Assembly: GCF_000739085.1 (NCBI RefSeq)
Contig: NZ_CP009110.1
Coordinates: 6,634,001 to 6,698,000 of the forward strand
Direction: 5' to 3'
Origin: Amycolatopsis methanolica 239
Lineage (GTDB): Bacteria > Actinomycetota > Actinomycetes > Mycobacteriales > Pseudonocardiaceae
DNA: 64,000 bases
In this document: positions 6,663 to 53,356 of the stretch, one piece after another
Layout: the number at the start of each line of letters is the position of its first letter
How positions within the stretch are numbered: the first letter of the stretch is position 1
The notes under the pieces: generated by a model
What the model was told of the DNA's origin: nothing
What the model saw: the letters and a program-made list of their open reading frames with translations, nothing else
Databases searched by the model: none
Translations under genes and position numbers: made by a program

Positions 6663-6689
6663 CGCCTGTCCGGCAACGGTTTCCCGGAT

Positions 6690-7094: not shown

Positions 7095-7095
7095 G

Positions 7096-7872: not shown

Positions 7873-7965
7873 GCCCCGCAGTATCGGCACACCAACGCCC
7901 GGGCCGGAACCGACGGACGTCGAAGACCACGCGGCGGCCGTTCCGAAAACCGGAGGAACGGCCTG

Positions 7966-9099: not shown

Positions 9100-9218
9100 C
9101 CTGCGCGTTTCGACAGGATGAGGAATCGCGGCCGGCAAAACCCGACCACCGTAGGTCGTCACCCGCCGGAGTTGCGCAGATACTCCCACCGGATCAACCG
9201 GCCCCGAAGGAGCAGCCG

Positions 9219-10514: not shown

Positions 10515-10589
10515 GATCGACGCGCGTTGTTCGCCCGGGCGTCGCCTGACGGTCGGCACCGCCACACGCGGAACGGACAAAGTGCGCAC

Positions 10590-11498: not shown

Positions 11499-11606
11499 AA
11501 TCCGCCGGCGGGCGGGCCGCGTACCGGCAGGCGCTCGCACTCGGGATGAGCGAGGCGCAGGCCGCCCACCTGCGCCTCGCCGAACTGGGCCGAGGCGTTG
11601 CGGCGC

Positions 11607-12044
11607 TCAGCCGGCCGTCTCGCGTGGCGCCATCTCCGAGATGATTCCCAGCTGCTGCAACGCGCCGAGCATGTCGTAGTTGACCCACATCTCCACGATC
11701 CGGTCGTCGGCCCACTTGGCGCACATCATGCCGGTCATCACGTACGTCTTGCCGGTCGCGGGCAGGCCGCGGAACTCCGCCCGCGACGTGCCGCCCATCG
11801 TGAACCGCACCGCGCACAGGTCGCCGTCCACGAGCACGTCGTGGATGTCCATGTGCAGGTCCGGGTTGGCGGTGCGCAGGTCGCCGACCTGGCGCTGGAA
11901 CCCGGCGACGCCGTCCACCTCGAAGCTGGGGTCGTGGAACGTGCAGTGCGGCGCGCACAGCTCTTCGCAGGCGTCGAGTTCGCCCTGGTTCCACATCAGG
12001 TCCAGCACCCGGCGCAACCGTTCGCGCCGCTCGTCGGAAGTCAT
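11607..12044 (-). CDS. SnoaL-like / ester cyclase family protein
   Basis: This 145-residue NTF2-fold protein has the pattern of SnoaL-like polyketide cyclases: MWNQGELDACEELCAPHCTF, FQRQVGDLRTANPDLHMDI, and the strand set VDGDLCAVRFTMGGT and WADDRIVEMWVNYDMLGALQQLG. Members range from true ester cyclases to proteins of unknown function, and no polyketide genes lie nearby, so an enzymatic role is not inferred. Start ATG 12044 has GGAGGCACCTC just upstream. It converges with the EEP gene. Confidence 0.8.
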   Translation of the reverse strand: MTSDERRERLRRVLDLMWNQGELDACEELCAPHCTFHDPSFEVDGVAGFQRQVGDLRTANPDLHMDIHDVLVDGDLCAVRFTMGGTSRAEFRGLPATGKTYVMTGMMCAKWADDRIVEMWVNYDMLGALQQLGIISEMAPRETAG

Positions 12045-12157
12045 GAGGTGCCTCCTTCCGGCCGCGCCTGGGCGGGCGGCGCCCGCTGACTACTGCCGCG
12101 GCCGCGATCCGCAGTCGACACCCGGCGCGCGCGGCGCGGACAGAGGCTTAGGGCTCT

Positions 12158-12967
12158 TTATCGCGCGGCGCCGACGCGGCGGCCGTAGGGCGAGCGGTGG
12201 TGGCCGATGCGGTGCACGGCCAGCGCGAGGAGGCCGAGGCTGAGGGCGGCGAGCACGATGTAGCTGAGCGTCGCGCCGATGCCGTCCCACGCGGCGTGCA
12301 GCGCCACGGCGACGACGAACGTCGCGGCGAAGCGGCCCATCCAGCGGGACCGTCCGCGGTGCCGGACGGCGGCCCACAACGCGGCGGCGGTCAGCCCGGT
12401 CCACGCCATGTGGGTGGCCGGGCTGAGCACGCCGCGGATCAGCAGCGTCTGGTCGACGGCGTTGATGTCGCCCTGGGACTGGAGGAACGCGACGAGGGCG
12501 TAGCCCATCGTTTCGAGCGCCGCGAAGCCCGCCCCGGACGCGACGCCGAGCAGGAGCCCGGTCGCCGCGCGACGATCGCGGACGACCAGGAGGACCACGG
12601 CGGGCGCGATGAGCTTCGCGGTCTCCTCGATGACGCCGACCCCGGCCATCTGGAACGGACCGAGGTCCTTGAGGACGTCGTACTCCAGCGCGCCGGCCGT
12701 GACGACCCCGACGACGCCCCCGACCACCGCGACGAGCCCGACGAGAACCGGATCGACCCCGAAGGAGAGCCGGCGCCCCCACACGAAGACGACGAAGGTG
12801 GCCGGCCCGACGACCGCGCCGAGCAGGATCAGGGAGGGCACCAGGTTGGGGTTCTCGGTGGCCAGCACAACCCGCCGGACGAGCTCGAACAACCCGAGCC
12901 CCACGACGAGCACGAGCCCCCACGCCCACCGCCAGGTCACCTTCCATGTCGCGGTCCGCGTCCGCAT
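12158..12967 (-). CDS. PrsW-family intramembrane metalloprotease
   Basis: This 269-residue protein has about eight hydrophobic segments. The PrsW/CPBP-like active-site motifs are all present: the EE pair in VIEETAKLIAP, then ALETMGYALV, SPATHMAWTGL and VVAVALHAAWDG near the C-terminus. PrsW in Bacillus cleaves the anti-sigma factor RsiW. No sigma/anti-sigma pair is visible here, so the substrate is unknown. Start ATG 12967 follows GGAGGTGCC. The gene is bounded downstream by the SnoaL-like gene on the same strand. Confidence 0.85.
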   Translation of the reverse strand: MRTRTATWKVTWRWAWGLVLVVGLGLFELVRRVVLATENPNLVPSLILLGAVVGPATFVVFVWGRRLSFGVDPVLVGLVAVVGGVVGVVTAGALEYDVLKDLGPFQMAGVGVIEETAKLIAPAVVLLVVRDRRAATGLLLGVASGAGFAALETMGYALVAFLQSQGDINAVDQTLLIRGVLSPATHMAWTGLTAAALWAAVRHRGRSRWMGRFAATFVVAVALHAAWDGIGATLSYIVLAALSLGLLALAVHRIGHHRSPYGRRVGAAR

Positions 12968-38834: not shown

Positions 38835-39494
38835 CTATTTCTGGCCGTACCCGCGCAGTTTCTCCACCACGTGCGCGATTTCCTCAAACGGCAGCAGCCG
38901 CGGGTTGCCCGCGGAACGGGCGAGCAGCCACACCTGGCAGAGCCACTCCAACTGCTCGGCCCGGCTGTACGCCGCCGCCAGACCGTCGCCGTACGTGATG
39001 GTTCCGTGGTTGCCCAGCAGGCAGCCCCGGCGACCCTCCAGCGCGGCGAGCATCGACTCCGCCAGCTCCTCCGTGCCGTACGTCGCGTAGCGGGCGACCC
39101 GCGCGGACGGGCCGATCGTTGCCAGCATGTAGTGCACCGCGGGCACCTCGTCGACCAAAGTGGACACCGCGGTCGCGTGCACCGAATGCGTGTGCACGAT
39201 CCCGGTGATCGGCGCGCCGTCCGGGTCGGCCGCCTTCGTGTACACCGACAGGTGCATCGGCATCTCGCTGGTGGGCCGCAGCTTGCCCTCCACAATGGCC
39301 CCGTCGAGCGCGACCACCGGGATATCCTCCGGCGTCAGCACGCCGTAGTCCACCCCGGTCGGCGTCACCGCGATCAGCTCGCCCGAGCGAGCGGAGATGT
39401 TGCCGGAGGTGCCGACCACCAGCCCGTCGGCGGTCAACCGCCGCGCGTACTCGCACACCGCTCGCCGTTCGTCGGCCAGGATCACAGTCGCCAC
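38835..39494 (-). CDS. Class II aldolase/adducin family protein
   Basis: This 219-residue protein resembles L-fuculose-phosphate aldolase (FucA). It has LVVGTSGNISAR, VTPTGVDYGVLTPEDIPVV, EMPMHLSVY with the catalytic Glu, HTHSVHATAV with two zinc His, and the third His in LLGNHGTITYGDGLAAAY. The zinc site is complete, so it is likely active in cleaving a phosphorylated sugar to DHAP or a related product. It is the last gene of the six-gene operon and overlaps the FGGY kinase by 13 bp. The substrate is probably the product of that kinase. Confidence 0.88.
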   Translation of the reverse strand: MATVILADERRAVCEYARRLTADGLVVGTSGNISARSGELIAVTPTGVDYGVLTPEDIPVVALDGAIVEGKLRPTSEMPMHLSVYTKAADPDGAPITGIVHTHSVHATAVSTLVDEVPAVHYMLATIGPSARVARYATYGTEELAESMLAALEGRRGCLLGNHGTITYGDGLAAAYSRAEQLEWLCQVWLLARSAGNPRLLPFEEIAHVVEKLRGYGQK

Positions 39495-40930
39495 AACCCC
39501 CGCGCGGCGGTCAGCGACGCCTGGTAGTCCGCGTAACCGCTCTGGTAGAACTCGACATTTTCGGGCACCGGCGACACGGTCCGCGAGCTACTCGCCCACA
39601 GCTCCGCGTCGAACGGCTGGTTCAGCGCCTCGGCCGCGACCAGGACGGCACCCCGCGCCCCGACACCCGGATCGCTCGGGATCACGATCGGGCGACCGAG
39701 CACGTCGGCGAAGATCTGCGTCCACTCGGCGGAGCGCACCCCGCCGCCGCACGCGTACAACCGGCCGGACAGCCCGGCCGCGTCGAAGCAGTGCCGTGCC
39801 GCGTAGGCGATCGACTCGCACAGCGCACGCACCACGTCCGCCCGCCCGTGCTCCAGGCTCAGCCCGGCGAACTGCGCCCGCGCGGACGCGTCGACGAACG
39901 GCGCCCGCTCACCGGACGCGGACAGGAACGGCAGCGCCCGCACCCCGGCGGCCCCGGGCGGGCTCTGCGCGAGCAGCGTCCCGATCTCGGTGACCTCGAT
40001 GCCCAGCAGACGACAGATCCAGTCGATGCTCGCGGTACCGACCATCGCCGGCATCGCGTGCAGGTACTCGCCGGGCGTCGGCGTGGACAGGAACATCCCG
40101 GCCGGCTCACCCTCGCCGTCGAACTCGGCGTTGTCGGTGAGCACCTGGCAAGCCAGTGTGGTGCCGGCGGTGAGGATGCCGTCGCCCGGCGCGCGCACCC
40201 CGGCGCCGATCGCGCTGGCAGGCAGGTCGAACGGGCCTGCGGTGACCGGCAGCCCCTCGGGCAGCCCGAGGAGTTCGGCGCCACGGCGGTTCAGCTTGAA
40301 CACGGCCTTCGGCGGCGCCGGTTCGGCCAGCAGATTCCGCCGGTGGGACAGTCCGACTGCGGCGATCGCGCCCTCGTCGTAGCGGCGGGTCTTCGGGTCG
40401 AGGAACGGCAGGGACGCGTCGGACACGTCGACCGTGATCTCGCCGGTCAGCCGCTGCACCACGGCGTCGACGCAGTACCCGGCCACCGCGGCGCGGTCCA
40501 GCACCTCGGGTTCGTGGGTGTCCAGGTAGGACAGGACGGCGGCCGCGCAGCCGGGGAACATGCCCGAGCCGGTGCGCCGGAACACCTCCCGCGACACCCC
40601 GTCGGCCTGCCACTTGGCGAGCAGCGCGTTGGCCCGGCCGTCGAGCCAGGAGATGGCTGGCCGCACGGCGTTGCCGTCCTCGTCGCGGAGCCACACGCCG
40701 TCGCCCTGACCGGTCAGCGCCAGCGCGGTGACCGGGGCGTCCAGCTTCGCCGCGACCTCGCGCACGACGGTCGCGACCGTGCCGACGACCTGGTCGAGGT
40801 CCTGTTCGACCCGGCCGCCAGGCAGGTGGTGCACCTCGGACGGCGTGCAGGCCTGGTGCAGCGACACCCCGGCCTCGTCGAACACGACGGCCTTCGTCAG
40901 TGAAGTACCGATGTCGACGCCGATGATCAT
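39482..40930 (-). CDS. FGGY-family carbohydrate kinase (first of two in the locus)
   Basis: This 482-residue kinase has the two actin-like lobes of the FGGY family: IGVDIGTSLTKAVVFDE (phosphate loop), ALTGQGDGVWL, SWLDGRANALL, the sugar-site GPFDLPASAIGAG, ILTAGTTLACQVL, and the ATP-binding CGGGVRSAEWTQIFADVLGR. It starts at ATG 40930, overlapping the dehydrogenase stop by 4 bp (ATGA). Motifs resemble L-xylulose/3-keto-gulonate-type kinases more than glycerol kinase, but the substrate cannot be fixed. It sits directly before the aldolase. Confidence 0.88.
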   Translation of the reverse strand: MIIGVDIGTSLTKAVVFDEAGVSLHQACTPSEVHHLPGGRVEQDLDQVVGTVATVVREVAAKLDAPVTALALTGQGDGVWLRDEDGNAVRPAISWLDGRANALLAKWQADGVSREVFRRTGSGMFPGCAAAVLSYLDTHEPEVLDRAAVAGYCVDAVVQRLTGEITVDVSDASLPFLDPKTRRYDEGAIAAVGLSHRRNLLAEPAPPKAVFKLNRRGAELLGLPEGLPVTAGPFDLPASAIGAGVRAPGDGILTAGTTLACQVLTDNAEFDGEGEPAGMFLSTPTPGEYLHAMPAMVGTASIDWICRLLGIEVTEIGTLLAQSPPGAAGVRALPFLSASGERAPFVDASARAQFAGLSLEHGRADVVRALCESIAYAARHCFDAAGLSGRLYACGGGVRSAEWTQIFADVLGRPIVIPSDPGVGARGAVLVAAEALNQPFDAELWASSSRTVSPVPENVEFYQSGYADYQASLTAARGLWRL

Positions 40931-41958
40931 CGCAGCACTTCCGGGTTCGCGACGTTCGCCAGCTGCTCCCCACGGGCGTAACGGCCCACCTCGGCGGCGA
41001 CGATCCGCGCGGCCCGTTCCGCCGTCTGGCGGCTGGCACCCGCCAGGTGCGGCGTCGCGATGACGTTCGGCGCGTCCCGGAGGGCCCAGTCCGCGGGCGG
41101 CGGCTCGACGTCGTAGACGTCCAGCGCGAGCGCGCCCAGCCGCCCGGACTTCAGCAGGTCCGGCAGCGGCGCGTAGTCCAGCAGCCCACCGCGAGCGGAG
41201 TTGACCAGCACCGCACCATCGGGCAGCAGGGCAAGGCGCTCGGCGTTGATCAGGTGGCGCGTCTCGTCGGTCAGGCGGGCGTGCAGGCTGACCACCGCGC
41301 TGCGGCGGAGGAGGTCGTCCAGCTCGACCAGCTCGGCCCCGTCCGCCGCGATCTGCTCCGGCTTCGCGTACGGGTCGGCGACCAGCACCTTCGACCCGAA
41401 CGCGACCAGCACCTTGGCCACCCGCGAGCCGATCGCGCCGTAGCCGACCAGGCCGACTGTGGTGCCCTCCAGCTCCAGCCCGGCGTTCGGGTAGGCGTAG
41501 TAGTCGCCACGCCAGGTGCCGCCGAGCAGCTCGGCCGACGAGGTCGAGATGCGGCGCATGGCGGCGAGGATCATGCCGATCGCGAACTCGGCGGCGGCGG
41601 TCGCGTTGCGGCCAGGCGCGTAGGTGACCGCGACGCCGGCCTCGGTGGCGGCCGCGAGGTCGACGTTCACCGGCCCGCCCCGGCACACCGACACGAGCTT
41701 CAGCTCGGGTGCGGCGGCGAAGACCTTCTTGGTGAACGGCGCCATCTGGGTGACCGCGACCTCGGCCCCGGCCAGCGCCTCGATGACCTGCTCCTCGGTG
41801 CCGCTCGCCTCGTGCACCCCACCGACCGGGCCGAACGGCTCGACCGGCCAGGGCAGCGACAGCTCACTGAATTCGGGCTCGGTGGCCAGCTCGGCCCGGA
41901 CCGCGTCGGCAAGCAGGTTGTTGCCGACGAACTCGTCTCCCGCGCAGAGAACGCGCAC
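40927..41958 (-). CDS. D-isomer-specific 2-hydroxyacid dehydrogenase (SerA-like)
   Basis: This 343-residue protein has the family pattern: substrate residues in VSVCRGGPVNVDLAAATEAG, the glycine-rich NAD loop VGLVGYGAIGSRVAKVL with an Asp at the end of strand 2 (VADPYAK), the catalytic Arg in LVNSARGGLLDY, Glu in VYDVEPPPAD and His in IATPHLAGAS. It lacks the ACT domain of SerA. It probably oxidises or reduces a sugar-acid intermediate of the local pathway. It lies 28 bp after the RpiB-type gene and overlaps the kinase. Confidence 0.88.
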   Translation of the reverse strand: MRVLCAGDEFVGNNLLADAVRAELATEPEFSELSLPWPVEPFGPVGGVHEASGTEEQVIEALAGAEVAVTQMAPFTKKVFAAAPELKLVSVCRGGPVNVDLAAATEAGVAVTYAPGRNATAAAEFAIGMILAAMRRISTSSAELLGGTWRGDYYAYPNAGLELEGTTVGLVGYGAIGSRVAKVLVAFGSKVLVADPYAKPEQIAADGAELVELDDLLRRSAVVSLHARLTDETRHLINAERLALLPDGAVLVNSARGGLLDYAPLPDLLKSGRLGALALDVYDVEPPPADWALRDAPNVIATPHLAGASRQTAERAARIVAAEVGRYARGEQLANVANPEVLR

Positions 41959-41986
41959 TTCTGGCTCCTCCTTGAACCGCCGGGCC

Positions 41987-42451
41987 TCAGCCGGCCGCGT
42001 GGACCTGTTCGTATTCGGTGATGTGTGCGACCTTGGCCGCGCTCGGCGAACCCGGGTCGAACGTGTACCCCAGCCACTCGGTGACGATCTTCTTCGCCAG
42101 CTCGGCCCCGATCACCCGGGCGCCGAAGGTGATGATCTGGCAGTTGTTCGACTTCACCGACCGCTCGGCCGAGTATGAATCGTGCGCGACCGTCGCACGC
42201 ACCCCCGGCACCTTGTTCGCCGAGATCGCCACACCGATGCCGGTGCCGCAGACCAGGACGCCCCGGTCGGCCTCGCCGTTGGCGATCTTCTCCGCGGCGG
42301 CCAGGCCGAAGATCGGGTACGCGCGGTCGTCGTCCGGGCTGTCCACGCCCAGGTCGATCACCTCGGTGACCCGCTCGTCCTTCGCCAGCAGGTCCCGCAC
42401 CTCGTTCTTCAGCAGCACGCCCGCGTTGTCCGCGGCCACCACGACCCGCAT
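41987..42451 (-). CDS. RpiB/LacAB-family sugar-phosphate isomerase (DerI-like candidate)
   Basis: This 154-residue protein has the RpiB fold with VVVAADNAGVLLKNEVRDLL, DDRAYPIFGLAAAEKIANGE, the catalytic Cys in LVCGTGIGVAISANKVPGVR, and NNCQIITFGARVIGAELAKK. RpiB proteins interconvert ribose-5-P and ribulose-5-P. Relatives in tetrose pathways (DerI, EryI) isomerise erythrulose-4-P and erythrose-4-P. Coupling to a Dak-type kinase favours the latter. It overlaps the kinase by one base, so translation is coupled. Confidence 0.88.
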   Translation of the reverse strand: MRVVVAADNAGVLLKNEVRDLLAKDERVTEVIDLGVDSPDDDRAYPIFGLAAAEKIANGEADRGVLVCGTGIGVAISANKVPGVRATVAHDSYSAERSVKSNNCQIITFGARVIGAELAKKIVTEWLGYTFDPGSPSAAKVAHITEYEQVHAAG

Positions 42452-44139
42452 CAGTGCCCCTCCTTGCCCAGAACTTCCCCGATCGCCGTGACGATCAGGG
42501 CGAACGAGGTCGCGCCGGGATCGGCGTGCCCCTTGCTGCGCTGCGCCAGCCGGGCCGCGCGTCCCTTGGCGGGCACCAGGTCCGCGGTCTCCTCGGCGGC
42601 GAGCGTGGCCGCCTGCGCGGCCTCGCGCCACGCGTCCGGCAGCGCGGCGCCGGCCGCGGCCTGCTTGCGCAGCGCCTGCCGGAACGGCTCGATCGCATCG
42701 AGCATGGTCTTCTCGCCGAGCTCGGCCTTGCCCAGCTCGGTGAACGCGCGTACCGCGCCGTCGACCGCGTCCGCGACCACCGAGGTGGTGATGTCGTCCA
42801 CCCGCAGCCCCGCGCCGGTCTCGGCGAGCAGCACGCCGTACAGGGCGCCGGACGCACCACCGGCGGCGTCGGCGAGCGCGGTCCCGGCCGCCAGCAGGGT
42901 GTCGGCCACCGAAGACCCGGCGGCCTCCCGAGCGGCCGAGACGGCGGCCCGCATCCCGCGGGTCATGCCGAGGCCGTGGTCACCGTCGGCGGCGACCGCG
43001 TCCAGGCGGCCCAGCTCGGACTCGTTGTCCTCGATGCGGCGCATGGCCGCGGTCAGCAGGCGGTCGACGAGCTCGACCCCCTCACCCTCCGGCCTGGCCA
43101 GCTGCTTGTCCACTGTGGACGACAGCTCGACCGGCCCCAGGATCGCCCCGCCGCTGCGGTAAGCCGGGGTGTCGCACGGCGCGCCGTACAGCTCGGCCAG
43201 CTCGTCGTCCAGCACCAGCACCGACAGCGAGACCCCGGCCATGTCCAGCGAGGTGACGAACTCGCCGACCTCGGTGTGCACCGGGGTCAGCCCGGCGTCG
43301 GCGAGGCGCTCGTGGATCCGGGTGTAGGTCACGAACATCTCTTCGTACTTGGTCCGGCCGAGGCCGTTGACCAGCACTGCGACGCGGCCGTCGCCCCGCG
43401 GCAGCTCGGGTAGCAGGCCGTCGACCAGCTCGTCGGCCAGCTCCGCCGCACCGAGGCGGCCGACGGTGCGCACCCCCGGCTCGCCGTGGATGCCGAGGCC
43501 CAGCTCCATCTCGGACTCGCCCACGGTGAACAGCGGCTGGTCGGCACCCGGGAGCGTGCAGCCGCCGAAGGCGACGCCGAACGTGCGGGTGTGCGCGTTG
43601 GCCTTGACCGCCGCCGCGTGCACCGCGTCGAGGTCGTCACCCCGCTCGGCAGCAGCGCCCGCGACCTTGAAGACGATGAAGTCGCCGGCTACCCCGCGGC
43701 GCTTCTCCGGCGCGTCCGCCGGTCCGCTCGCGATGTCGTCGGTGACCAGGATGGTGCGACTCTCGATGCCCTCCGCGGCCAGGCGGCGCGCGGCGAGGCC
43801 GAAGTGCAGGACGTCACCGGCGTAGTTGCCGTAGGCGAACAGCACCCCCGCGCCACCCTCGGCGGCGCGGGCCGTGCGGTAGACCTGCTCGGCGCTCGGG
43901 CTGGTGAACACGTCACCGACCACCGCCGCGTCGGCGAGGCCGGGCCCGACCAGGCCGGCGAAGGCCGGGTAGTGGCCGCAGCCGCCGCCGATGACCACGG
44001 CGACCTTGCCCCGCCGGGGCACGTTCCGGCCGAGCACGCCGTACGCGCCGGGCACCTTGCGGACCTCGCGGCCGTACGCGGTGACGAAGCCGTCCAGCCA
44101 GTCCCGCTTGAACGTCGCGGCCGTTCCCAGCGTGGTCAT
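42451..44139 (-). CDS. Fused DhaK-DhaL (Dak-type) ketose kinase, erythrulose kinase candidate
   Basis: This 562-residue ATP-dependent kinase has an N-terminal DhaK domain (1-330) with IGGGCGHYPAFAGLVG, FAYGNYAGDVLHFGLAA, and FGVAFGGCTLPG followed by GIHGEPGVR. The latter holds the His that binds the keto substrate as a hemiaminal. The C-terminal DhaL domain (about 360-560) has AVAADGDHGLGMTRGMRAAV with the Asp/Mg site, and GGASGALYGVLLAETG. Such fusions phosphorylate dihydroxyacetone, or in actinobacterial tetritol pathways D- or L-erythrulose (DerK/LerK). With an RpiB isomerase next door, erythrulose is the stronger guess. It overlaps the HAD gene by 4 bp. Confidence 0.9.
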   Translation of the reverse strand: MTTLGTAATFKRDWLDGFVTAYGREVRKVPGAYGVLGRNVPRRGKVAVVIGGGCGHYPAFAGLVGPGLADAAVVGDVFTSPSAEQVYRTARAAEGGAGVLFAYGNYAGDVLHFGLAARRLAAEGIESRTILVTDDIASGPADAPEKRRGVAGDFIVFKVAGAAAERGDDLDAVHAAAVKANAHTRTFGVAFGGCTLPGADQPLFTVGESEMELGLGIHGEPGVRTVGRLGAAELADELVDGLLPELPRGDGRVAVLVNGLGRTKYEEMFVTYTRIHERLADAGLTPVHTEVGEFVTSLDMAGVSLSVLVLDDELAELYGAPCDTPAYRSGGAILGPVELSSTVDKQLARPEGEGVELVDRLLTAAMRRIEDNESELGRLDAVAADGDHGLGMTRGMRAAVSAAREAAGSSVADTLLAAGTALADAAGGASGALYGVLLAETGAGLRVDDITTSVVADAVDGAVRAFTELGKAELGEKTMLDAIEPFRQALRKQAAAGAALPDAWREAAQAATLAAEETADLVPAKGRAARLAQRSKGHADPGATSFALIVTAIGEVLGKEGH

Positions 44140-44813
44140 GAGCGCACCAGCTCCCCGGCGAGGTAGGCGAGCAGCAGCTTCCGGACGTCGTGGTTGGACT
44201 CCGCGACCTGCGCGGCCAGCTCCAGCGCGTCCGGCTTCGGCGGGTAGGCCGGGTTGGGCAGTGCGATGACGGTCAGCCCGGCGGCCGCGGCAGCGCGGAT
44301 GCCGTTGCTGGAGTCCTCGACCCCCAGGCACTCCTCGCCGCGGAAGCCCAGCCGGGACGCCGCCTCGGCGTAGACGTCCGGGCTCGGCTTGCCGCGCGGC
44401 ACCTCGGCGCTGGACACGGTGGCCGAGAACTCCCCCGTCAGCCCGTGAGTCTCCAGCACCGCGTCGATCACCCGGCGCGCCGCCGAGGACGCGAGCGCGA
44501 CCGGGACGCGGGCCGCCACGTCGCGCACCATCGCGTCGGCGCCGTCGAGCAGCGGGGCCTCGCCGTCGGCGATCGACTTGATCATCCCGTCGACCACGGC
44601 CTTCTCGACCTGCTCCGGGGTCTCCGGGGTCCCGCTGCGCTCCGCCAGGTACGCGGCCCACTCGGGCGCGCTCATGCCCTGGACGGTGGCGGTGTCGGCG
44701 GCCGTCCACTCGACACCGTAGGCCGCCGCGTAGGCGACCCAGTTCTCCTCCCAGAGGTGTTCACTCTCGACCAGGACACCGTCGAGGTCGAACACCACCG
44801 CGGCGAAACCCAT
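44136..44813 (-). CDS. HAD-family phosphatase/phosphomutase (beta-PGM-like)
   Basis: This 225-residue protein has the classic HAD motifs FDLDGVLVESEHLWEENW (DxD), ALASSAARRVIDAVL (motif II), PRGKPSPDVYAEAASRLGF (motif III Lys) and GVEDSSNGIRAAAAAGLTV (motif IV), with a C1 helical cap. It resembles sugar-phosphate phosphatases and beta-phosphoglucomutases. It is the first gene of the leftward operon, 23 bp downstream of an operator-like palindrome. It may dephosphorylate a dead-end sugar phosphate. Confidence 0.87.
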   Translation of the reverse strand: MGFAAVVFDLDGVLVESEHLWEENWVAYAAAYGVEWTAADTATVQGMSAPEWAAYLAERSGTPETPEQVEKAVVDGMIKSIADGEAPLLDGADAMVRDVAARVPVALASSAARRVIDAVLETHGLTGEFSATVSSAEVPRGKPSPDVYAEAASRLGFRGEECLGVEDSSNGIRAAAAAGLTVIALPNPAYPPKPDALELAAQVAESNHDVRKLLLAYLAGELVRS

Positions 44814-44836
44814 GCAACAACCCCTTTCACGCCGTT

Positions 44837-44853
44837 GATGTTAAATTAACACC
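44837..44853. promoter_or_regulatory. Operator-like palindrome 1 (candidate DeoR-family site)
   Basis: GATGTTAAATTAACACC contains the perfect palindrome TGTTAA-A-TTAACA. It lies between the divergent HAD operon (start 44813) and the histidine phosphatase gene (start 44882). Read on the minus strand it is GGTGTTAATTTAACATC, sharing GTGTTAATTT with the site at 46302. An AT-rich island in very GC-rich DNA, it is well placed to control both directions. Confidence 0.75.
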
Positions 44854-44881
44854 GCTGCCGAGATTTGTCACGGGAGGTCCA

Positions 44882-45487
44882 ATGGGAACGCGGTTGCTGC
44901 TGGTCCGCCACGGCGAGACCGAATGGCACGCGGAGAACCGCTACGCCGGCACCAGCGAGGTGGGCCTCACCGAGCGGGGCCGCAGGCAGGCCGAAGGGCT
45001 CGCGGCATACCTGAACAGCGCCGGCGAGCCGGTCACCGCGCTCTACCGGTCGCCGCAGGGGCGCGCGCAGGTCACCGCCGAGCCGTCCGCGCGGGCGCTC
45101 GGCCTCGAGCCCGTCGTGCTCGACGAGCTGCGCGAGGTGCACTTCGGGATCGCCGAGGGCAAGGTGCTGTCCGAGCTGGATCCGCAGGTCGTGGCCGCGT
45201 TCCGGGCGGATCCGGTGGCCGGCGCGTTCCCCGGGGCCGAGCCGACGGCCGAGGCCGCGCGCCGGGGAGCGGCGGCGCTGCGCGGCATCGCGAAGCGCGA
45301 GAACGGCGGGCGGGTGCTGGTCGTCGCACACAACACGCTGATCCGGGTCACGCTCTGCGAACTGCTCGGCATCCCGGTCCGCGACTACCGCCGCGTGTTC
45401 CCGCGCCTGGAGAACGCGGCCATCACCGAGATCGGGATCGACGGCGACGCGACGAGCCTGCGGCGCTTCAACCTGCCCACGTCCTAG
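44882..45487 (+). CDS. Histidine phosphatase family protein
   Basis: This 201-residue protein is of the phosphoglycerate mutase-like branch: catalytic LLLVRHGETEWHAENRYAG, the first Arg region YRSPQGRAQVTAEPSARALG, the catalytic Glu in LREVHFGIAEGKVL, and VVAHNTLIRVTLCELLG with the second His. It acts on a small phosphorylated metabolite or as a cofactor-independent phosphatase. It heads the rightward set, 28 bp after the operator-like palindrome, and is followed 10 bp later by the DeoR gene. Confidence 0.88.
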   Translation: MGTRLLLVRHGETEWHAENRYAGTSEVGLTERGRRQAEGLAAYLNSAGEPVTALYRSPQGRAQVTAEPSARALGLEPVVLDELREVHFGIAEGKVLSELDPQVVAAFRADPVAGAFPGAEPTAEAARRGAAALRGIAKRENGGRVLVVAHNTLIRVTLCELLGIPVRDYRRVFPRLENAAITEIGIDGDATSLRRFNLPTS

Positions 45488-45496
45488 CCTTGTCCC

Positions 45497-46285
45497 GTGG
45501 AAGACAAGTCCAGCGGGAGCGCGCGCTCCCGTAACATCCGGCAGCAGCGCATCACCGACTACGTCGTGAAGAAGGGCCAGGCGTCCGCCGCGGAGCTGGC
45601 CGAGCTGACCGGCGTGAGCGTGATGACGGTGCACCGCGACCTGGACGAACTGGCCCGGCGCGGCCTGCTGCGCAAGTACCGCGGCGGGGTCTCCGCGCAG
45701 CCGTCGACGGTGTTCGAGAGCAACACCGAGTACCGGCTCAACGCCCACGTCGAGGCGAAGGCGGCGATCGCCGAGAAGGCGTTGTCGCTGGTCGAGCCCG
45801 GGATGTCGATCCTGCTGGACGACTCGACCACCGCGCTCGCACTGGCCAAGCTGCTGCACCAGGTCACGCCGCTTACCGTGGCGACGAACTACCTGCGGAT
45901 CATCGAGGTGCTCAAGCAGGTCGACGACGTGCGCCTGATCGGGCTCGGCGGCGACTATTCCGCGACCCACGACTCGTTCCTCGGCATGCCCTGCCTGGAG
46001 GCCGTCGAGCGGCTCACCGTTGACGTGACGTTCGTGTCGACCTCGGCGATGAACGCGGAGATGACGTTCCACCAGGAGCCCGAGATCGTCATGGTCAAGC
46101 GGGCGATGCTGGCCAGCGCGGAGATCCGGGTGCTGCTCATGGACTCCAGCAAGATGCCGCGCACCGCGCTGCACCGCCTGGCCGAGATCGAGGACTTCCA
46201 CCACCTCGTGGTCGACTCAGCCGTGTCCGCATACCTGCTCGACCAGTACGAGGACCAGACGAACGTGCTCGTCGCCGAGGTCTGA
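45497..46285 (+). CDS. DeoR/GlpR-family transcriptional regulator
   Basis: This 262-residue protein starts at GTG 45497. The N-terminal winged HTH (about 18-72) has RQQRITDYVVKKGQASAAEL and GVSVMTVHRDLDELARRGLL. The C-terminal domain is the DeoR sensor fold related to ribose-5-phosphate isomerase, with LDDSTTALALAKLL and VLLMDSSKM. DeoR repressors are released by a phosphorylated sugar intermediate. It is the obvious regulator of the surrounding operons through the two GTGTTAATTT boxes. Confidence 0.92.
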   Translation: MEDKSSGSARSRNIRQQRITDYVVKKGQASAAELAELTGVSVMTVHRDLDELARRGLLRKYRGGVSAQPSTVFESNTEYRLNAHVEAKAAIAEKALSLVEPGMSILLDDSTTALALAKLLHQVTPLTVATNYLRIIEVLKQVDDVRLIGLGGDYSATHDSFLGMPCLEAVERLTVDVTFVSTSAMNAEMTFHQEPEIVMVKRAMLASAEIRVLLMDSSKMPRTALHRLAEIEDFHHLVVDSAVSAYLLDQYEDQTNVLVAEV

Positions 46286-46301
46286 TCGCATCACACTCTT
46301 G

Positions 46302-46318
46302 CGTGTTAATTTCACGTG
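46302..46318. promoter_or_regulatory. Operator-like box 2 (candidate DeoR-family site) before MFS-kinase operon
   Basis: CGTGTTAATTTCACGTG shares ten identical bases, GTGTTAATTT, with site 1 read in the same sense. It is an imperfect palindrome with a CGTG/CACG outer arm. It lies about 40 bp upstream of the MFS transporter start. A -10-like TGATAACT at 46324-46331 follows it, so a bound repressor would cover the promoter. Confidence 0.7.
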
Positions 46319-46358
46319 CTCCATGATAACTTGGGTTTCGCACACTCATGGAGGCGTG

Positions 46359-47690
46359 ATGACGCAGACGGCAACATCGAGGTTGTCCCAGCCGGACAGG
46401 GGGTTCGGGGGGCTTCTCGCCAGGTGGGGGCTACCGGCCCCGTTGTTCCTCGGGTACGTCGGCCTGTTGCTGTTCATGGTCGGCGACGGCGTGGAGTCCG
46501 GGTTCATCGCACCGTTCATGGCCGACCACGGCGCCGGGGACGAAATTCACGCGTCCTATGTGATCACCGCGTACGGCGTGGCCGTGATGCTCGCGTCCTG
46601 GCTGTCCGGCGCGTTGTCGGAGCTGTGGGGGCCGCGCCGGGTCATGTGGATCGGCCTGGCGATCTGGCTCGTGTTCGACGTGCTGTTCCTCGCCGTGGCG
46701 GTGCCCAGCGAGAACTACCCGCTGATGCTGATCACCTACGGCATCCGCGGCTTCGGGTACCCGATGTTCGCGTTCGGGTTCCTGGTGTGGATCACGGCGG
46801 TGGCCCCGGTCGCGCGGCTCGGCGCGGCGGTCGGCTGGTTCTACTTCGCGTTCACCGGCGGCCTGCCCACGCTCGGCTCGCTGGTCGCGAGCTTCACCAA
46901 CCCGGCGCTCGGCCACTACGGCACGCTGTGGCTGTCGGTCGGCATCCTGGCCGCGGGCGGTCTGCTGTGCGTGCTCGGGGTTCGGGAGCGCACCGGGTTC
47001 ACGCGGCTCGCGCCGGAGGGCGTCAAGCCGGTGCAGAGCCTGGTGTCCAGCGTGTCGATCGCGTGGAAGAACCCGCGCGTGGGCGTCGGGATGATCGTGC
47101 GGATCATCAACACCGCGCCGGAGTTCGGCATGCTGGTGTTCTTCCCGACGATCTTCGCCGACCAGATCGGGTTCGGCGAGGGCCGATGGCTGCTGCTGGT
47201 GTCGGTCATCTACGGCACGAACATCTTCTTCAACCTGATCTTCGGTGTGGCTTCGGACAGGATCGGCTGGCAGCGCACGATCTTCTGGTTCGGCGCGATC
47301 GGCTGCGCGATCTCGATCCTGCTGCTGTACTTCGTGCCGACGTCGCTGGGCGCGGACTACTACTGGGTGGCTCTGCTCGTGGGCGCGCTGTACGGGGCGA
47401 CGCTGGCCGGGTTCGTGCCGATCTCGGCGCTTTTGCCCTCGCTCGCGCCGGAGAACAAGGGCGGCGCGATGGCGTTGCTGAACCTGGGCGCCGGTGCCGC
47501 CGCGTTCGTCGGACCGGCGATCGTCTCGCTGTTCCTCGGCCCGGCGGGCGCGGCCGGCGTGGTGATCATCTTCGCCGCGCTGTACATCGTGGCGGCTGTG
47601 CTCACCCGGTTCCTGAAGCTGCCGGAGGCCACGCGGAAGGCCATCGACGAGGACGTCAGCTTGCAGGACGTGACGGCGGTCCGCCCGTGA
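46359..47690 (+). CDS. MFS transporter of the RbtT/DalT (polyol permease) type
   Basis: This 443-residue protein has about twelve helices. It shows PLFLGYVGLLLFMVGDGVES, YVITAYGVAVMLASWLSGAL, SELWGPRRVMWIGL, ITYGIRGFGYPMFAFGFLVW, VASDRIGWQRTIFWFG and PISALLPSLAPENKGGAMAL. These are characteristic of the ribitol/arabinitol permease family. Start ATG 46359 follows GGAGGCGTG. Its stop overlaps the next kinase by 4 bp (GTGA), so uptake and phosphorylation are coupled. A polyol or keto-sugar is the likely cargo. Confidence 0.88.
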   Translation: MTQTATSRLSQPDRGFGGLLARWGLPAPLFLGYVGLLLFMVGDGVESGFIAPFMADHGAGDEIHASYVITAYGVAVMLASWLSGALSELWGPRRVMWIGLAIWLVFDVLFLAVAVPSENYPLMLITYGIRGFGYPMFAFGFLVWITAVAPVARLGAAVGWFYFAFTGGLPTLGSLVASFTNPALGHYGTLWLSVGILAAGGLLCVLGVRERTGFTRLAPEGVKPVQSLVSSVSIAWKNPRVGVGMIVRIINTAPEFGMLVFFPTIFADQIGFGEGRWLLLVSVIYGTNIFFNLIFGVASDRIGWQRTIFWFGAIGCAISILLLYFVPTSLGADYYWVALLVGALYGATLAGFVPISALLPSLAPENKGGAMALLNLGAGAAAFVGPAIVSLFLGPAGAAGVVIIFAALYIVAAVLTRFLKLPEATRKAIDEDVSLQDVTAVRP

Positions 47691-49078
47691 CGGTTGTCGG
47701 TGTCGACGTCGCGACCGCGGGGGTGCGTGCCTTCGCGGTCGGCGGCGACGGCTCGGTGCGGGCGACGGCTGCCGAGCCGTTGCCCGCACCGGTCCGGGAC
47801 GAGTCCGGCCGCAGCGAGCAGGACGCGCGGGCGTGGTGGCCCGCGGCGGAGTCGGTGCTGCGGCGGGTGGCCGCGGAGATGGCCGAGCCGGTGCGGGCGG
47901 TCGCGGTGTCGGCCACCTCGGGCACGATCGTCGCGGTCGACTGCCGGGGCGAGCCGCTGGGCCCGGCGCTGATGTACGACGACCGGCGCGGCGCGGACGA
48001 CAACGCGAAGGCGGCGGAGGTGGGCGCGCAGCGGTGGCACGAGCTGGGGATGAGCGTGTCGCCGACGGCGGCGCTGGGCCGGATCAACTGGCTGCGCCGC
48101 GCCTACCCGGATGCCGCCGGTGTCCGGCACACGCCCGACCTGATCGGTGAGAAGCTCCTCGGCCGTCCGGTGGCGACCGACTCCTCGCATGCCCTGAAGA
48201 GCGGGTACGACCCGTTGCGCGAGGAGTGGGCGGCCGAGGTGTTCGACTTCGGGGTGGACTGGCTCCCCGAAGTCGTGCGGCCGACGGCCGTGCTGGGCGA
48301 GTTGCCCCGCCCGGTCGCCGGCCTGCCCCAGGGCTGCCTGGTGGTGGCCGGCATGACCGACGGTTGTGCCGGCCAGCTGGCGACGGGCGCCGTGACGCCG
48401 GGCCGTTTCGCAGGCATCCTCGGCACGACCTACGTGTTGAAGGGCGTGACCGAACACCTGGTGCGAGACCCGTCCGGGGCGATGTACAGCCACCGCCACC
48501 CGGACGGCTGGTGGCTGCCCGGCGGAGCGTCGAACACCGGCGGCGAGGCGGTGGCCGGTGTGCCCAACCTCGCCACGCTGGACGAAGAGGCAGCACGGCG
48601 CGGCCCGGCGCGAGTGGTGGCCTACCCCCTGAAGCGCGCGGGTGAGCGCTTCCCGTTCGTCACGCCCGACGCCCGGGGCTTCGTACTGGGCGAGCCGCGG
48701 GACGAGGTGGAGCTGCACCGCGCCCGCCTGGAGGGCGTCGCCTTCGTGGAGAGGCTGGCGTTGGAGCGGTTGCGTGGGCTGGGGGTGCCCGTGACCGGCC
48801 CGCTGGTGGCCGCGGGCGGGGGCAGCAAGAGTCCGTTGTGGACCCGCATCCGGGCGACGGTCAGCGGAATGGAACTGCGAGTGTCACCCCAAGCCGAAAC
48901 CGGCTACGGAGCAGCGATGCTCGCAGCCGCAGCGGTACTGCCGGGGGGACTGACCGAAGCGGCGGCAATGATCGGCGGAGAAGAATCGGTAGTTGAGCCG
49001 GACGCGGCGGAACAAGAGCCGATGGAAGAGAACTACCAGCGGTTCAAAGAGGAATTGAAGAACCAGGGCTGGCTTTAG
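47687..49078 (+). CDS. FGGY-family carbohydrate kinase (second of two in the locus)
   Basis: This 463-residue kinase starts at GTG 47687. Motifs are VGVDVATAGVRAFAVGGDG, AVSATSGTIVAVD, YDDRRGADDNAK, the FGGY-signature region GCLVVAGMTDGCAGQLATGA and the ATP site VAAGGGSKSPLWTRIRATVS. It is shorter and only distantly like the kinase at 39482, so the locus phosphorylates either two substrates or two positions. Being coupled to the transporter it probably acts on the incoming sugar or polyol. Confidence 0.88.
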   Translation: MTVVGVDVATAGVRAFAVGGDGSVRATAAEPLPAPVRDESGRSEQDARAWWPAAESVLRRVAAEMAEPVRAVAVSATSGTIVAVDCRGEPLGPALMYDDRRGADDNAKAAEVGAQRWHELGMSVSPTAALGRINWLRRAYPDAAGVRHTPDLIGEKLLGRPVATDSSHALKSGYDPLREEWAAEVFDFGVDWLPEVVRPTAVLGELPRPVAGLPQGCLVVAGMTDGCAGQLATGAVTPGRFAGILGTTYVLKGVTEHLVRDPSGAMYSHRHPDGWWLPGGASNTGGEAVAGVPNLATLDEEAARRGPARVVAYPLKRAGERFPFVTPDARGFVLGEPRDEVELHRARLEGVAFVERLALERLRGLGVPVTGPLVAAGGGSKSPLWTRIRATVSGMELRVSPQAETGYGAAMLAAAAVLPGGLTEAAAMIGGEESVVEPDAAEQEPMEENYQRFKEELKNQGWL

Positions 49079-50866: not shown

Positions 50867-52099
50867 GTGCAACTGCAGGAGATCGTGGCCGACCTGGCCG
50901 AACACTGGCCGCTCTACGTCTCGATGCCGTTCATCGCCGCGCTCATCGGCTACGTGACCAAGCGTGTGGCCATCGAGATGATGTTCCGGCCGATCGAGTT
51001 CATCGGGATCCGGCCGTTCCTCGGCTGGCAGGGCGTGCTGCCTGCCAACGCCGAGCGCATGGCGGCCACCGCCACCGACATGCTCACGAACAACCTGGTC
51101 GACCCGAAAGAGATCTTCGCCAGGCTCGACCCGGACCAGCTCGCCAAGGAGATCGAGCAACCGCTCCTGCAGGTGGTCGAGGAGATCACCGAAGAGGTCA
51201 TGGAGCAGTACCAGCCGCGCCTGTGGGAGGCACTGCCGAGCGGCGCGAAGGAACTGCTGCTGCGCCGCGTCCAGGCCGAGGCCCCCAAGGTGATCGCGAA
51301 GATCATGCGGGAGCTGTCGGACAACATCGAGGACGTCCTCGACCTCAAGAACATGGTCATCACCAACCTGGTGCGCGACAAGAGCCTCCTCAACCGGCTC
51401 ATCCGGGACATCTCACGACCCGAGATGCGGTTCATCGCGAATTCCGGGCTGGTGTTCGGCTTCGCCCTCGGGTGCGTCCAGCTGCTCGTGTGGGCGCTGA
51501 CCAAGTCGCCGATCGTGATGCCGCTGTTCGGCCTCGGCATCGGCTGGTTCACCGACTGGCTCGCCCTCAAGATGATCTTCCTGCCGCGTGAGCCGCGCGA
51601 GTTCTTCGGCCTCTACACCTGGCAGGGCGTGTTCCAGAAGCGCCGCGACCAGGTGGCCGCCGACTACGGCGACATGATCGCCCGCGAGATCATCACCATC
51701 CCGAACCTGCTGGAAGCCATCCTCAAGGGCCCGAAGGCCGACCGGCTGTTCCACCTGATCGGCCGCGAGGTGCAGCGGACCATCGACGTGCAGGCCGGCG
51801 TCGTGAAACCGCTCGTCGCGGCCGCGGTGGGCACGCGCAAGTGGCAGGAGATGAAGCAGGCCGCGGCGCTCAAGGCGGCGGAGCGGGTGCCGGACACCAT
51901 CCGGTACGCCGAGGAGTACGCGGTCAACGCCCTGGACGTGCGGAACACGATCGTCGACCGCATGCGGCAGCTGTCCCCGATCGAGTTCGAGGAGCTGCTG
52001 CGGCCCGCGTTCCGGCAGGACGAGTGGAAGTTGATCGCCGTCGGTGCGATCATCGGCGGGCTCGTGGGTGAGCTCCAGGCGATCCTGCTCCTCCACTAA
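50867..52099 (+). CDS. DUF445 family membrane protein, copy 1
   Basis: This 410-residue protein starts at GTG 50867 behind GAGGAGGGGCC. It has one hydrophobic segment near residues 17-32 (MPFIAALIGYVTKRVAIEMM), two around 195-245 (VFGFALGCVQLLVWALT, PLFGLGIGWFTDWLALKMIF), and a C-terminal helix (LIAVGAIIGGLVGELQAILL). Between them are long soluble helical regions. The motif GYVTNxxAIxMMFRP is the DUF445 hallmark and occurs twice, around both membrane regions. Function is unknown. A second copy follows. Confidence 0.88.
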   Translation: MQLQEIVADLAEHWPLYVSMPFIAALIGYVTKRVAIEMMFRPIEFIGIRPFLGWQGVLPANAERMAATATDMLTNNLVDPKEIFARLDPDQLAKEIEQPLLQVVEEITEEVMEQYQPRLWEALPSGAKELLLRRVQAEAPKVIAKIMRELSDNIEDVLDLKNMVITNLVRDKSLLNRLIRDISRPEMRFIANSGLVFGFALGCVQLLVWALTKSPIVMPLFGLGIGWFTDWLALKMIFLPREPREFFGLYTWQGVFQKRRDQVAADYGDMIAREIITIPNLLEAILKGPKADRLFHLIGREVQRTIDVQAGVVKPLVAAAVGTRKWQEMKQAAALKAAERVPDTIRYAEEYAVNALDVRNTIVDRMRQLSPIEFEELLRPAFRQDEWKLIAVGAIIGGLVGELQAILLLH

Positions 52100-52132: not shown

Positions 52133-53356
52133 ATGGACGGGGTGCTGGCCGACTTCGCGCAGCACTGGCCGCTCTACACCGCGATCCCGTTCATCGCCGC
52201 GCTCATCGGTTACGTCACCAAGCGCGTCGCCATCGAAATGATGTTCCGCCCGCTGGAGTTCGTGGGTATCCGCCCGATCTTCGGCTGGCAGGGCGTGGTG
52301 CCCAAGCACGGCGGCCGGATGGCGGCCATCGCCACCGACCTGCTCACCGCGAACCTGATCGACCTCGGCGAGGTGATCGGCCGCGTCCAGGCGGACCGCC
52401 TGGTGCGGGAGATCGAGCAGCCGCTGCTGCGGGCCATCGACGACCTGGCCCGCGACGTGATGGCCAAGCACCACCCGCGGCTGTGGGAGTCGCTGCCGCC
52501 GATGGCGCAGGACCTGATCGTCAAACAACTCCAGGCCGGCTCGCCGAAGCTGGTTCGCGAGCTGCTGGACGAGGTCCGCGCCAACCTCGACGGCGTGCTC
52601 GACGTCAAGCACATGACCGTCGAGCGGCTCACCCGCGACCGCGCCCTGCTGGTGCGACTGATCCGCGAGACGTCCCGGCCGGAGATGGCGTTCATCGCCC
52701 GCTGCGGGATCTACTTCGGATTCGTCCTCGGCATCGTGCAGGCGGTGGTGTGGGCGCTGACGAAGAACCCGTGGGTGCTGCCGGTGTTCGGCGGCGCCAT
52801 CGGGCTGTTCACCGACTGGCTGGCGATCAAGATGATCTTCCTGCCGCGCCGTCCGGTGAAGATCGGGCCGATCACGCTGCAGGGCAAGTTCCAGCGCCGC
52901 AAGGCCGAAGTCGCCCGCCAGTACGGCGAGATCATCGCCCGCGAGGTGCTGACCGTCGCCAACCTCCTCGACGAGCTGCTGACCGGCCCGCGCGCCGACC
53001 GGCTCGCCGCGCTCGTGCGGCGCGTGGTGGCCAGGGCCGTCGACGAGCAGGTCGGCCTGATCCGGCCGCTGCTGTCCGCGGCGGTCGGCGGCGAGCGGCT
53101 ACGTGAGATGACCGCGACCGCGGCGGCCGGGTCGCTCGCGCAGATGCCGTACCTGCTCCGGCAGGCCGAGCCGTACCTGGTCGAGGCGATGGACCTGGCG
53201 AACATGGTCGAGCGGCGGATGCTCGCGCTCACGCCCGAGGAGTACGAGAACCTGCTGCGCCCGGCGTTCCGCCAGGAGGAGTGGAAGCTGATCGCGGTGG
53301 GCGGTGTGATCGGGTTCGTCGTCGGTGAGTTGCAGGTTTTGCTGATGCTTCACTAG
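52133..53356 (+). CDS. DUF445 family membrane protein, copy 2
   Basis: This 407-residue paralogue of the preceding gene shares its whole layout: FIAALIGYVTKRVAIEMMFR near the N-terminus, FGGAIGLFTDWLAIKMIFLP in the middle, and LLRPAFRQEEWKLIAVGGVI at the C-terminus. It starts at ATG 52133, 33 bp after copy 1. The two diverge mostly in the soluble helices. Tandem retention suggests a hetero-oligomer or separate roles; neither is shown by sequence. Confidence 0.88.
   Translation: MDGVLADFAQHWPLYTAIPFIAALIGYVTKRVAIEMMFRPLEFVGIRPIFGWQGVVPKHGGRMAAIATDLLTANLIDLGEVIGRVQADRLVREIEQPLLRAIDDLARDVMAKHHPRLWESLPPMAQDLIVKQLQAGSPKLVRELLDEVRANLDGVLDVKHMTVERLTRDRALLVRLIRETSRPEMAFIARCGIYFGFVLGIVQAVVWALTKNPWVLPVFGGAIGLFTDWLAIKMIFLPRRPVKIGPITLQGKFQRRKAEVARQYGEIIAREVLTVANLLDELLTGPRADRLAALVRRVVARAVDEQVGLIRPLLSAAVGGERLREMTATAAAGSLAQMPYLLRQAEPYLVEAMDLANMVERRMLALTPEEYENLLRPAFRQEEWKLIAVGGVIGFVVGELQVLLMLH

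Follow-up and report, generated by a model that had tools for sequence, protein, structure and literature searches.

A ten-gene locus of Amycolatopsis methanolica 239, homologous to the Sinorhizobium erythritol/adonitol/L-arabitol locus, with a probable role in the use of small sugar alcohols

Which substrate is served by a gene cluster in which two FGGY kinases, a fused ketose kinase, an RpiB-type isomerase, a class II aldolase and a 2-hydroxyacid dehydrogenase stand together with two phosphatases, a DeoR-family regulator and a permease? The cluster lies at positions 38835-49078 of a 64,000-nucleotide (nt) stretch of Amycolatopsis methanolica 239 (hereafter the window; positions 6634001-6698000 of a single 7.24 Mb contig). 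An earlier note on this DNA had assigned it to carbohydrate or polyol catabolism, and this assignment is upheld here. Based on the computed gene content, a common operator, homology and the co-occurrence of gene modules, we consider it fairly probable that this is a DeoR-controlled locus for the uptake and breakdown of small sugar alcohols (erythritol/threitol and ribitol or L-arabitol), homologous to the erythritol/adonitol/L-arabitol locus of Sinorhizobium. The note had left the substrate as another ketose, a polyol or a sugar acid; a polyol that is phosphorylated first is now the likelier choice, and a ketose or a sugar acid the less likely ones.

Gene calls and searches with Pfam and NCBIfam profiles confirmed the ten genes, their two directions and the families named in the note. 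The leftward arm (minus strand) begins with three genes that we treat as module A, namely: HAD (44136-44813; PF00702), a phosphatase; DHAKL (42451-44139; PF02733+PF02734), a fused Dak1-Dak2 ketose kinase; and RPIB (41987-42451; TIGR02133, 182 bits against a cut-off of 168), an isomerase of the tetrulose-4-phosphate type. These are followed by HADH (40927-41958; PF02826/PF00389), an RbtA-type protein of the 2-hydroxyacid dehydrogenase fold and our proposed polyol-phosphate dehydrogenase; FGGY1 (39482-40930; PF00370/PF02782), an EryA-like polyol kinase proposed to catalyse the first step; and ALD (38835-39494; PF00596), a class II aldolase of the ketose-1-phosphate aldolase type. The rightward arm (plus strand) comprises the histidine phosphatase HPH (44882-45487; PF00300); DEOR (45497-46285; PF08220+PF00455), an EryR-like regulator; MFS (46359-47690; TIGR00897, 546 bits against a cut-off of 375), a polyol-type permease of the RbtT/DalT/CsbX family; and FGGY2 (47687-49078; FGGY), an RbtB-like kinase of the D-ribulokinase (SePSK) family. 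HPH and FGGY2 form module B. The overlapping starts and stops said to tie the leftward genes together were measured at 1-13 nt: 4 nt for DHAKL/HAD, 1 nt for RPIB/DHAKL, 4 nt for FGGY1/HADH, and 13 nt for ALD/FGGY1 if the listed GTG start is used (4 nt from an alternative start), while RPIB and HADH are 28 nt apart with no overlap. MFS and FGGY2 overlap by 4 nt, and a 68-base gap (44814-44881) separates the divergent arms.

The gene-neighbourhood search that the note had proposed was carried out on 100 related loci, made up of the best 80 of at least 509 HADH relatives in named genomes plus 20 further stretches. The loci were picked for their similarity to the window; many come from Amycolatopsis, and they do not count as independent cases. 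At E ≤ 1e-60, 29 of the 246 genomes of the class, the A. methanolica genome included, contain an HADH relative, and the HADH proteins of Amycolatopsis deserti and A. thermalba are 98% identical to that of the window. All ten genes are found in 19 of the 100 loci by tblastn (16 by gene calls), and four more loci lack ALD alone by tblastn. With all ten genes recurring in 19 loci and a common operator in both regulatory gaps, the locus is not a chance assembly.

The operator is a DeoR-type palindrome, GTTAANTTAAC, and the ten genes look like one regulon under it, as judged from sequence. Its single exact match in the 7.24 Mb genome is Operator 1 (GTTAAATTAAC, 44840-44850, no strand assigned), which lies between HAD and HPH within the divergent promoter. 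Operator 2 (GTTAATTTCAC, one mismatch, 46305-46315, also without strand) lies between DEOR and MFS, and a scan of the window that allowed two mismatches gave these two sites alone. A backwards control pattern likewise occurs once in the genome, so the rarity of the palindrome is partly a matter of base composition and its placement is what counts. The position of Operator 1 is kept in related loci. Within the 1.93 Mb of the 100 loci there are 75 sites with at most one mismatch, distributed over 59 loci: 65 lie between two cluster genes, 10 beside one and none elsewhere, and the gaps between neighbouring cluster genes amount to 39 kb of this sequence. Each of 29 permuted control palindromes gave at most one match between cluster genes. 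A one-mismatch site is also found ahead of a ribose-type ATP-binding cassette (ABC) transporter in the Streptomyces griseus group; the operator permits a motif search for further regulon members.

How are the ten genes combined elsewhere? Module counts were made on the 80 loci in which HADH has 8 kb or more of sequence on either side (full-flank loci); the others were dropped for short flanks, except L086, which fell out because its HADH gene, found by tblastn, was uncalled. For counting, module A was defined as DHAKL or RPIB, and module B as FGGY2 or HPH. Where the gene caller had missed a gene, tblastn recovered it (FGGY2 in L043, L072, L073 and L078; RPIB in L080). FGGY1 is present in 78 of the 80 loci and a DeoR gene in 72; the two loci with HADH and no FGGY1 (L054 and L070) are also the two with neither module. 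Module A alone occurs in 20 loci, module B alone in 30 and both in 28. HAD, DHAKL and RPIB are found together in 47 of the 48 module-A loci (46 by gene calls, one added by tblastn); L129 has no DHAKL by tblastn either. HAD itself is present in 48/48 and is never seen without DHAKL or RPIB. Similarly, all 58 full-flank loci with FGGY2 (54 by gene calls, four by tblastn) carry a phosphatase gene; this is HPH in 53 of them and an additional HAD in the other five, of which the one scanned matched PF00702. L082, L083 and L090 lack a histidine phosphatase; there, MFS and FGGY2 have a short-chain dehydrogenase/reductase (SDR) and a different HAD as neighbours. ALD is present in 27 of the 80 loci, every time alongside module A. 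Thus, FGGY1 and HADH form a core that is joined to back end A (HAD, DHAKL and RPIB), to back end B (a second FGGY kinase and another phosphatase), or to both. The separability of the back ends supports the 'two converging routes' that the note had considered.

The nearest known system is found in rhizobia. Among the plasmid matches listed, the closest HADH genes outside the actinobacteria are in Sinorhizobium and Shinella. The loci of S. meliloti Ak57 (pSymB) and S. fredii NGR234 contain, in order, an ABC transporter, homologues of FGGY1 (34%), HADH (45%) and ALD (39%, not in NGR234), a GlpD-like gene, a class II aldolase-family protein of 351-357 amino acids (aa), a homologue of FGGY2 (35%), an HAD of another Pfam type (Hydrolase_6), a triosephosphate isomerase (TIM)-barrel protein, DeoR (45%), triosephosphate isomerase and RpiB (51%, 145 aa). 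According to the accessible part of PMC3599248, such a locus serves erythritol, adonitol and L-arabitol, with fucA1 as the only gene lacking in NGR234; the same text names a lalA-rbtB-rbtC suboperon and the proteins EryA, RbtA, EryB, LalA, RbtB, RbtC, EryC, TpiB and EryR. Matching gene order suggests that FGGY1 corresponds to EryA, HADH to RbtA, ALD to FucA1, FGGY2 to RbtB and HAD to RbtC. The EryA assignment is independently supported, since the kinase of the eryABCD operon on pRL12 is 55.8% identical to the NGR234 protein.

The Sinorhizobium locus (mptABCDE, eryABCD, rbtABC, lalA, fucA1 and eryR-tpiB-rpiB) therefore shares with the window an EryA-type kinase, an RbtA-type HADH, a FucA1-type class II aldolase, an RbtB-type second FGGY kinase, a phosphatase, an EryR-like DeoR regulator and RpiB. 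The note had held that known tetritol loci do not combine two FGGY kinases, an aldolase and a hydroxyacid dehydrogenase; the Sinorhizobium locus has them all, and the system is thus not without precedent. An identical gene set with an assigned pathway, which the note had named as counter-evidence, was found in part: the Sinorhizobium set is homologous, not identical. EryB (GlpD-like), EryC, TpiB, LalA and the Mpt ABC transporter have no counterpart among the ten genes, whereas DhaKL, an HAD of another subgroup, a histidine phosphatase and an RbtT-type MFS permease are extra in the window. In place of the RbtC-type HAD, the window has an HAD without a Hydrolase_6 match and a histidine phosphatase, for which we propose the same role. 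The eryABCD-eryR-tpiB-rpiB operon of Rhizobium leguminosarum (johnstonii 3841, pRL12) shares with the window an EryA kinase relative, a DeoR regulator and RpiB, but has no HADH, second FGGY kinase or phosphatase; oxidation there is by EryB and isomerisation by TpiB. The Brucella type, as cited in PMC10733421, is grouped here with this operon.

Family tests of the individual proteins (trees built with FastTree) agree with this matching. FGGY1 joins EryA at a node with support 0.95, and E. coli XylB, LyxK, GlpK, AraB, FucK, RhaB, LsrK and YgcE lie outside it. A GQGDG motif is found in 11 of 13 FGGY1 and four of five EryA sequences in the alignment; the variant AQGDG occurs in the FGGY1 of L042 and L131, in the fifth EryA and in a haloarchaeal protein, and QGDG in none of the eight E. 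coli FGGY proteins. The one exception in the tree is a Shinella kinase (locus L139) that has no HADH beside it, yet falls inside the FGGY1 clade; its motif reads GQSDG. The best curated model for FGGY1 is XylB, at 228 bits under a cut-off of 380. HADH, 45% identical to the Sinorhizobium genes matched to rbtA, groups with RbtA (support 0.93), apart from E. coli SerA, PdxB and GhrB, and shares with it an RGGPVN...PGRN signature. DEOR is 45% identical to the Sinorhizobium DeoR matched to EryR. No NCBIfam equivalog scores above its cut-off for FGGY1, FGGY2, ALD or HADH.

From these comparisons we infer the substrates, the order of reactions, the reaction of HADH and the assignment of the modules to chain lengths, as follows. 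The RbtT-type permease would import the polyol, which EryA-like FGGY1 would phosphorylate. The RbtA-like HADH would then oxidise the polyol phosphate to a ketose phosphate that bears its phosphate on the 'wrong' end, and HAD or HPH would strip this phosphate to give the free ketose. DHAKL would re-phosphorylate a tetrulose at the other end, with RPIB then giving erythrose-4-phosphate, while FGGY2 would re-phosphorylate D-ribulose to ribulose-5-phosphate; both products would feed the pentose phosphate pathway. ALD, which is probably accessory, may cleave leftover ketose-1-phosphate to dihydroxyacetone phosphate and an aldehyde. The step of dephosphorylation followed by re-phosphorylation is argued from the phosphatases, which belong to two superfamilies and several HAD subgroups and always stand beside a second kinase. 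DhaKL needs a ketose and RpiB a ketose phosphate, which argues that the HADH product is, or becomes, a ketose. The note had seen no polyol dehydrogenase. Indeed none of the usual families is present, but a dehydrogenase gene is: the role is probably filled, after phosphorylation, by HADH.

In its general form, this would be a polyol route by 'phosphate relocation', in which a kinase acts first, a 2-hydroxyacid-dehydrogenase-fold enzyme has switched to polyol phosphates, and dephosphorylation is followed by re-phosphorylation at the other end, with interchangeable back ends of a phosphatase and a kinase (DhaKL and RpiB for four-carbon, C4, substrates, FGGY2 for five-carbon, C5, substrates) attached to a single front end of broad specificity, all governed by one DeoR operator. 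The route would be widespread, spanning Amycolatopsis, Saccharopolyspora, Streptomyces, Nocardiopsis, Microbacteriaceae and rhizobia. We regard this wider proposal as tentative, with a somewhat less than even chance of being right.

Several observations weigh against these assignments. FGGY1 and EryA are only 32-34% identical, and kinases of the FGGY1 clade also occur without HADH (L139, and L182 described below). In 41 of the 100 loci, including 18 of the 20 added stretches and the Saccharopolyspora loci, no operator site turned up with one mismatch allowed, and no search for a different operator was made in them; nor was the operator seen by eye upstream of Sinorhizobium eryR. HADH retains R256/E285/H304, the R/E/H triad of acid dehydrogenases, so its substrate may instead be a hydroxy acid, and we know of no 2-hydroxyacid-dehydrogenase-fold enzyme that acts on a polyol phosphate. 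The name RbtA for HADH was deduced from the order of names in PMC3599248. The same paper describes the S. meliloti rbt genes as unneeded for erythritol, so that oxidation of a C4 substrate by HADH is less likely in loci that have module A only.

The retained triad would fit a sugar-acid pathway, in which FGGY1 would phosphorylate an aldonate and HADH would work as a genuine 2-hydroxyacid dehydrogenase, with the keto-acid phosphate decarboxylated or cleaved to a ketose for the second kinases. Aldonate and 2-ketogluconate routes both fall under this alternative. The closest solved relative of HADH by sequence, 1wwk, is annotated as a phosphoglycerate dehydrogenase, and FGGY1 has a weak gluconokinase match (140 bits against a cut-off of 649). 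No decarboxylase or dehydratase is visible, as no enzyme gene beyond the ten was seen kept with the core across genera, in a comparison where neighbours were grouped by similarity and most had no family assignment. ALD is missing from most full-flank loci, and its best NCBIfam matches are to ketose-1-phosphate aldolases (PRK06833 fuculose-phosphate aldolase, 202 bits, and RU1PAldHalo ribulose-1-phosphate aldolase, 199 bits, both under cut-off) against 100 bits for 3-oxo-tetronate-4-phosphate decarboxylase. In addition, the rhizobial relatives are located in polyol loci and the permease is of the RbtT family. We therefore hold the sugar-acid pathway to be improbable. A ketose-1-phosphate aldolase as the main route was rejected, given the 27/80 count and the dispensability of fucA1 in S. 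meliloti as reported in the accessible text of PMC3599248; ALD shares 39% identity with the gene of S. meliloti that was matched to fucA1.

Do the two back ends serve different chain lengths? Module A is probably for tetritols and module B probably for pentitols. RPIB is 51% identical to the RpiB of the Sinorhizobium ery loci and groups with it, apart from E. coli RpiB (0.91), as well as with a paralogue in its own genome that adjoins DhaKL, an SDR, a TIM-barrel protein and a split transketolase; the resemblance of the Dak and RpiB pair to tetrulose use, which the note had pointed out, thus holds. The D-erythrulose-4-phosphate isomerase model NF051858 gives 166 bits, under its cut-off of 240. 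In DHAKL, GIHGEPG aligns with GIHSEPG of a DhaK structure, and its His presumably helps to hold the ketose. Among the matches listed, RPIB relatives lie at 22 places in the order, of which 13 were fetched and two have HADH; of the 11 others, nine have DHAKL and five a TpiB-like isomerase, as in tetritol loci. One locus of the same order, L182 (G303:C3, 2887-7434), brings together an FGGY1-type kinase (49%), an EryB-like protein (31%), a TpiB-like protein (36%) and RPIB (55%), a combination that resembles the Brucella-type erythritol genes. These neighbours are the reason for taking module A as the C4 branch, and the D-ribulokinase type of FGGY2 is the reason for taking module B as the C5 branch. 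The best solved relative of FGGY2 is SePSK (5htn, 160 bits), whose D8, T11, S72 and D221 match the same residues in FGGY2 (with chain numbering taken as shifted by two), and FGGY2 and RbtB group with support 1.00, RbtB scoring 327 bits to AtXK-1 and 300 to SePSK. In the part of PMC4880283 available, SePSK phosphorylates D-ribulose and AtXK-1 responds to it only to a limited extent, so clade membership is no proof of D-ribulose activity.

Alternatively, both back ends could serve a single C5 polyol, with DHAKL and FGGY2 as alternative ketopentose kinases, RPIB interconverting pentose phosphates, and no use of tetritols. The 20 loci with A only and the 30 with B only do resemble substitutes for each other, and in S. 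meliloti the rbt genes serve C5 polyols (PMC3599248). Against this, both modules are kept in 28 of 80 loci, and 22 of these 28 are complete (18) or lack ALD alone (4), each with at least one operator site. Also, RPIB falls with the ery-locus proteins in the tree, its relatives adjoin DHAKL and TpiB-like isomerases, and the genome has two further RpiB-like genes (33% identity). A single C5 polyol thus seems unlikely. DHAKL as part of plain dihydroxyacetone or glycerol use was rejected as the leading interpretation; in the window, DHAKL is linked with RpiB, HAD and HADH, and the two other Dak loci of the genome (L135 and L136) look like ordinary DhaK and DhaL loci, L135 with a DhaM-like gene carrying EIIA-man and HPr domains.

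Could the phosphatases act on imported polyol phosphates instead? The polyol would then derive from a phosphodiester such as ribitol teichoic acid or glycerophospho-polyols. In favour of this, nine module-B loci have GDPD-family genes nearby (L044, L045, L047, L050, L051, L053, L091, L104 and L113). Ugp-type ABC transporters occur in 9/80 full-flank loci, and in L045 and L050 the GDPD gene adjoins an inositol-monophosphatase-family gene. Two GDPD queries and a phosphatase query found no match in any of the 19 loci with all ten genes, nor in the 30 kb of the window that was searched, and FGGY1 would be superfluous for an imported polyol phosphate; in L064, L066 and L069, which lack ALD alone, a distant GDPD (30-36%) lies about 4 kb or more beyond FGGY1. 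With the linkage limited to some module-B loci, a glycerophosphodiester or teichoic-acid source was rejected as the leading interpretation, and we rate it as very improbable. The GDPD-bearing module-B loci, several of which also have Ugp-type transporters, may themselves point to phosphodiester-derived polyols (positions L044:12454-13443, L045:17850-19369, L047:6647-7702, L050:1932-3460 and L091:6120-6812).

The proposed sugar alcohol locus also differs from two other known systems. In the tetritol pathways of Mycobacterium smegmatis, with EltD, LerK, LerI and DerI (Huang 2015, as described in the available part of PMC10733421), the tetrulose kinase and DerI have the roles expected for DHAKL and RPIB. 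There, the free polyol is oxidised first and an L-erythrulose-1-phosphate isomerase is used, whereas in the window phosphorylation would come first and a phosphatase would replace that isomerase. Profiles reveal no SDR, medium-chain dehydrogenase/reductase or GlpD-like gene among the ten that could form erythrulose as in M. smegmatis. The classical ribitol operon consists of ribitol dehydrogenase, D-ribulokinase and RbtT. The window shares with it an RbtT-family permease and a D-ribulokinase-family FGGY2, but has no ribitol dehydrogenase among the ten genes, and a phosphorylated intermediate is proposed to precede oxidation.

This kind of system is already known; the new parts are the form that it takes in actinobacteria, back ends that can be exchanged, the operator and the role proposed for HADH. 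Our literature search, with most subscription papers outside it, recognised no description of this locus in Actinobacteria among the matches listed, and those matches held nothing usable on Amycolatopsis phenotypes on adonitol or erythritol. A 2011 survey states, in its accessible part, that EryA and the D-ribulokinase RbtK are exclusive to Alphaproteobacteria (PMC3245297); against this, the rhizobial erythritol/ribitol locus would now extend to another phylum. FGGY, DhaKL and 2-hydroxyacid dehydrogenase genes that lack a curated functional model and recur in many actinomycetes gain a testable function, HADH being a dehydrogenase whose likely substrate is not suggested by its fold. Should HADH prove to be a polyol-phosphate dehydrogenase, what rbtA, rbtB and rbtC do biochemically would be open to direct tests.

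Other loci came to light in the course of this work. The A. methanolica genome has a second DHAKL (52%) and RPIB (62%) pair (L137; G000:C1:2326000-2343000, 5019-12909), with an MFS permease recognised by eye, a TIM-barrel isomerase-type protein, an SDR, a GntR regulator and a split transketolase; it has the look of a canonical tetritol or apiose-type locus of the M. smegmatis kind. On a plasmid of Shinella sp. WSC3-e (L139, 878-11474), an FGGY1-like kinase (49%) without HADH lies beside GlpD and a class II fructose-bisphosphate aldolase, and the annotations continue with E1 and E2 parts of a 2-oxoacid dehydrogenase, a lipoyl protein and lipoyl synthase. A plasmid of the archaeon Halapricum desulfuricans (L143, 1303-8888) clusters an FGGY1-like kinase (35%), a class II aldolase (39%), GlpABC and an inositol-monophosphatase gene. 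Finally, outside the locus, the window holds two adjacent DUF445 genes (50867-52099 and 52133-53356) that encode proteins of about 410 aa with similar starts.

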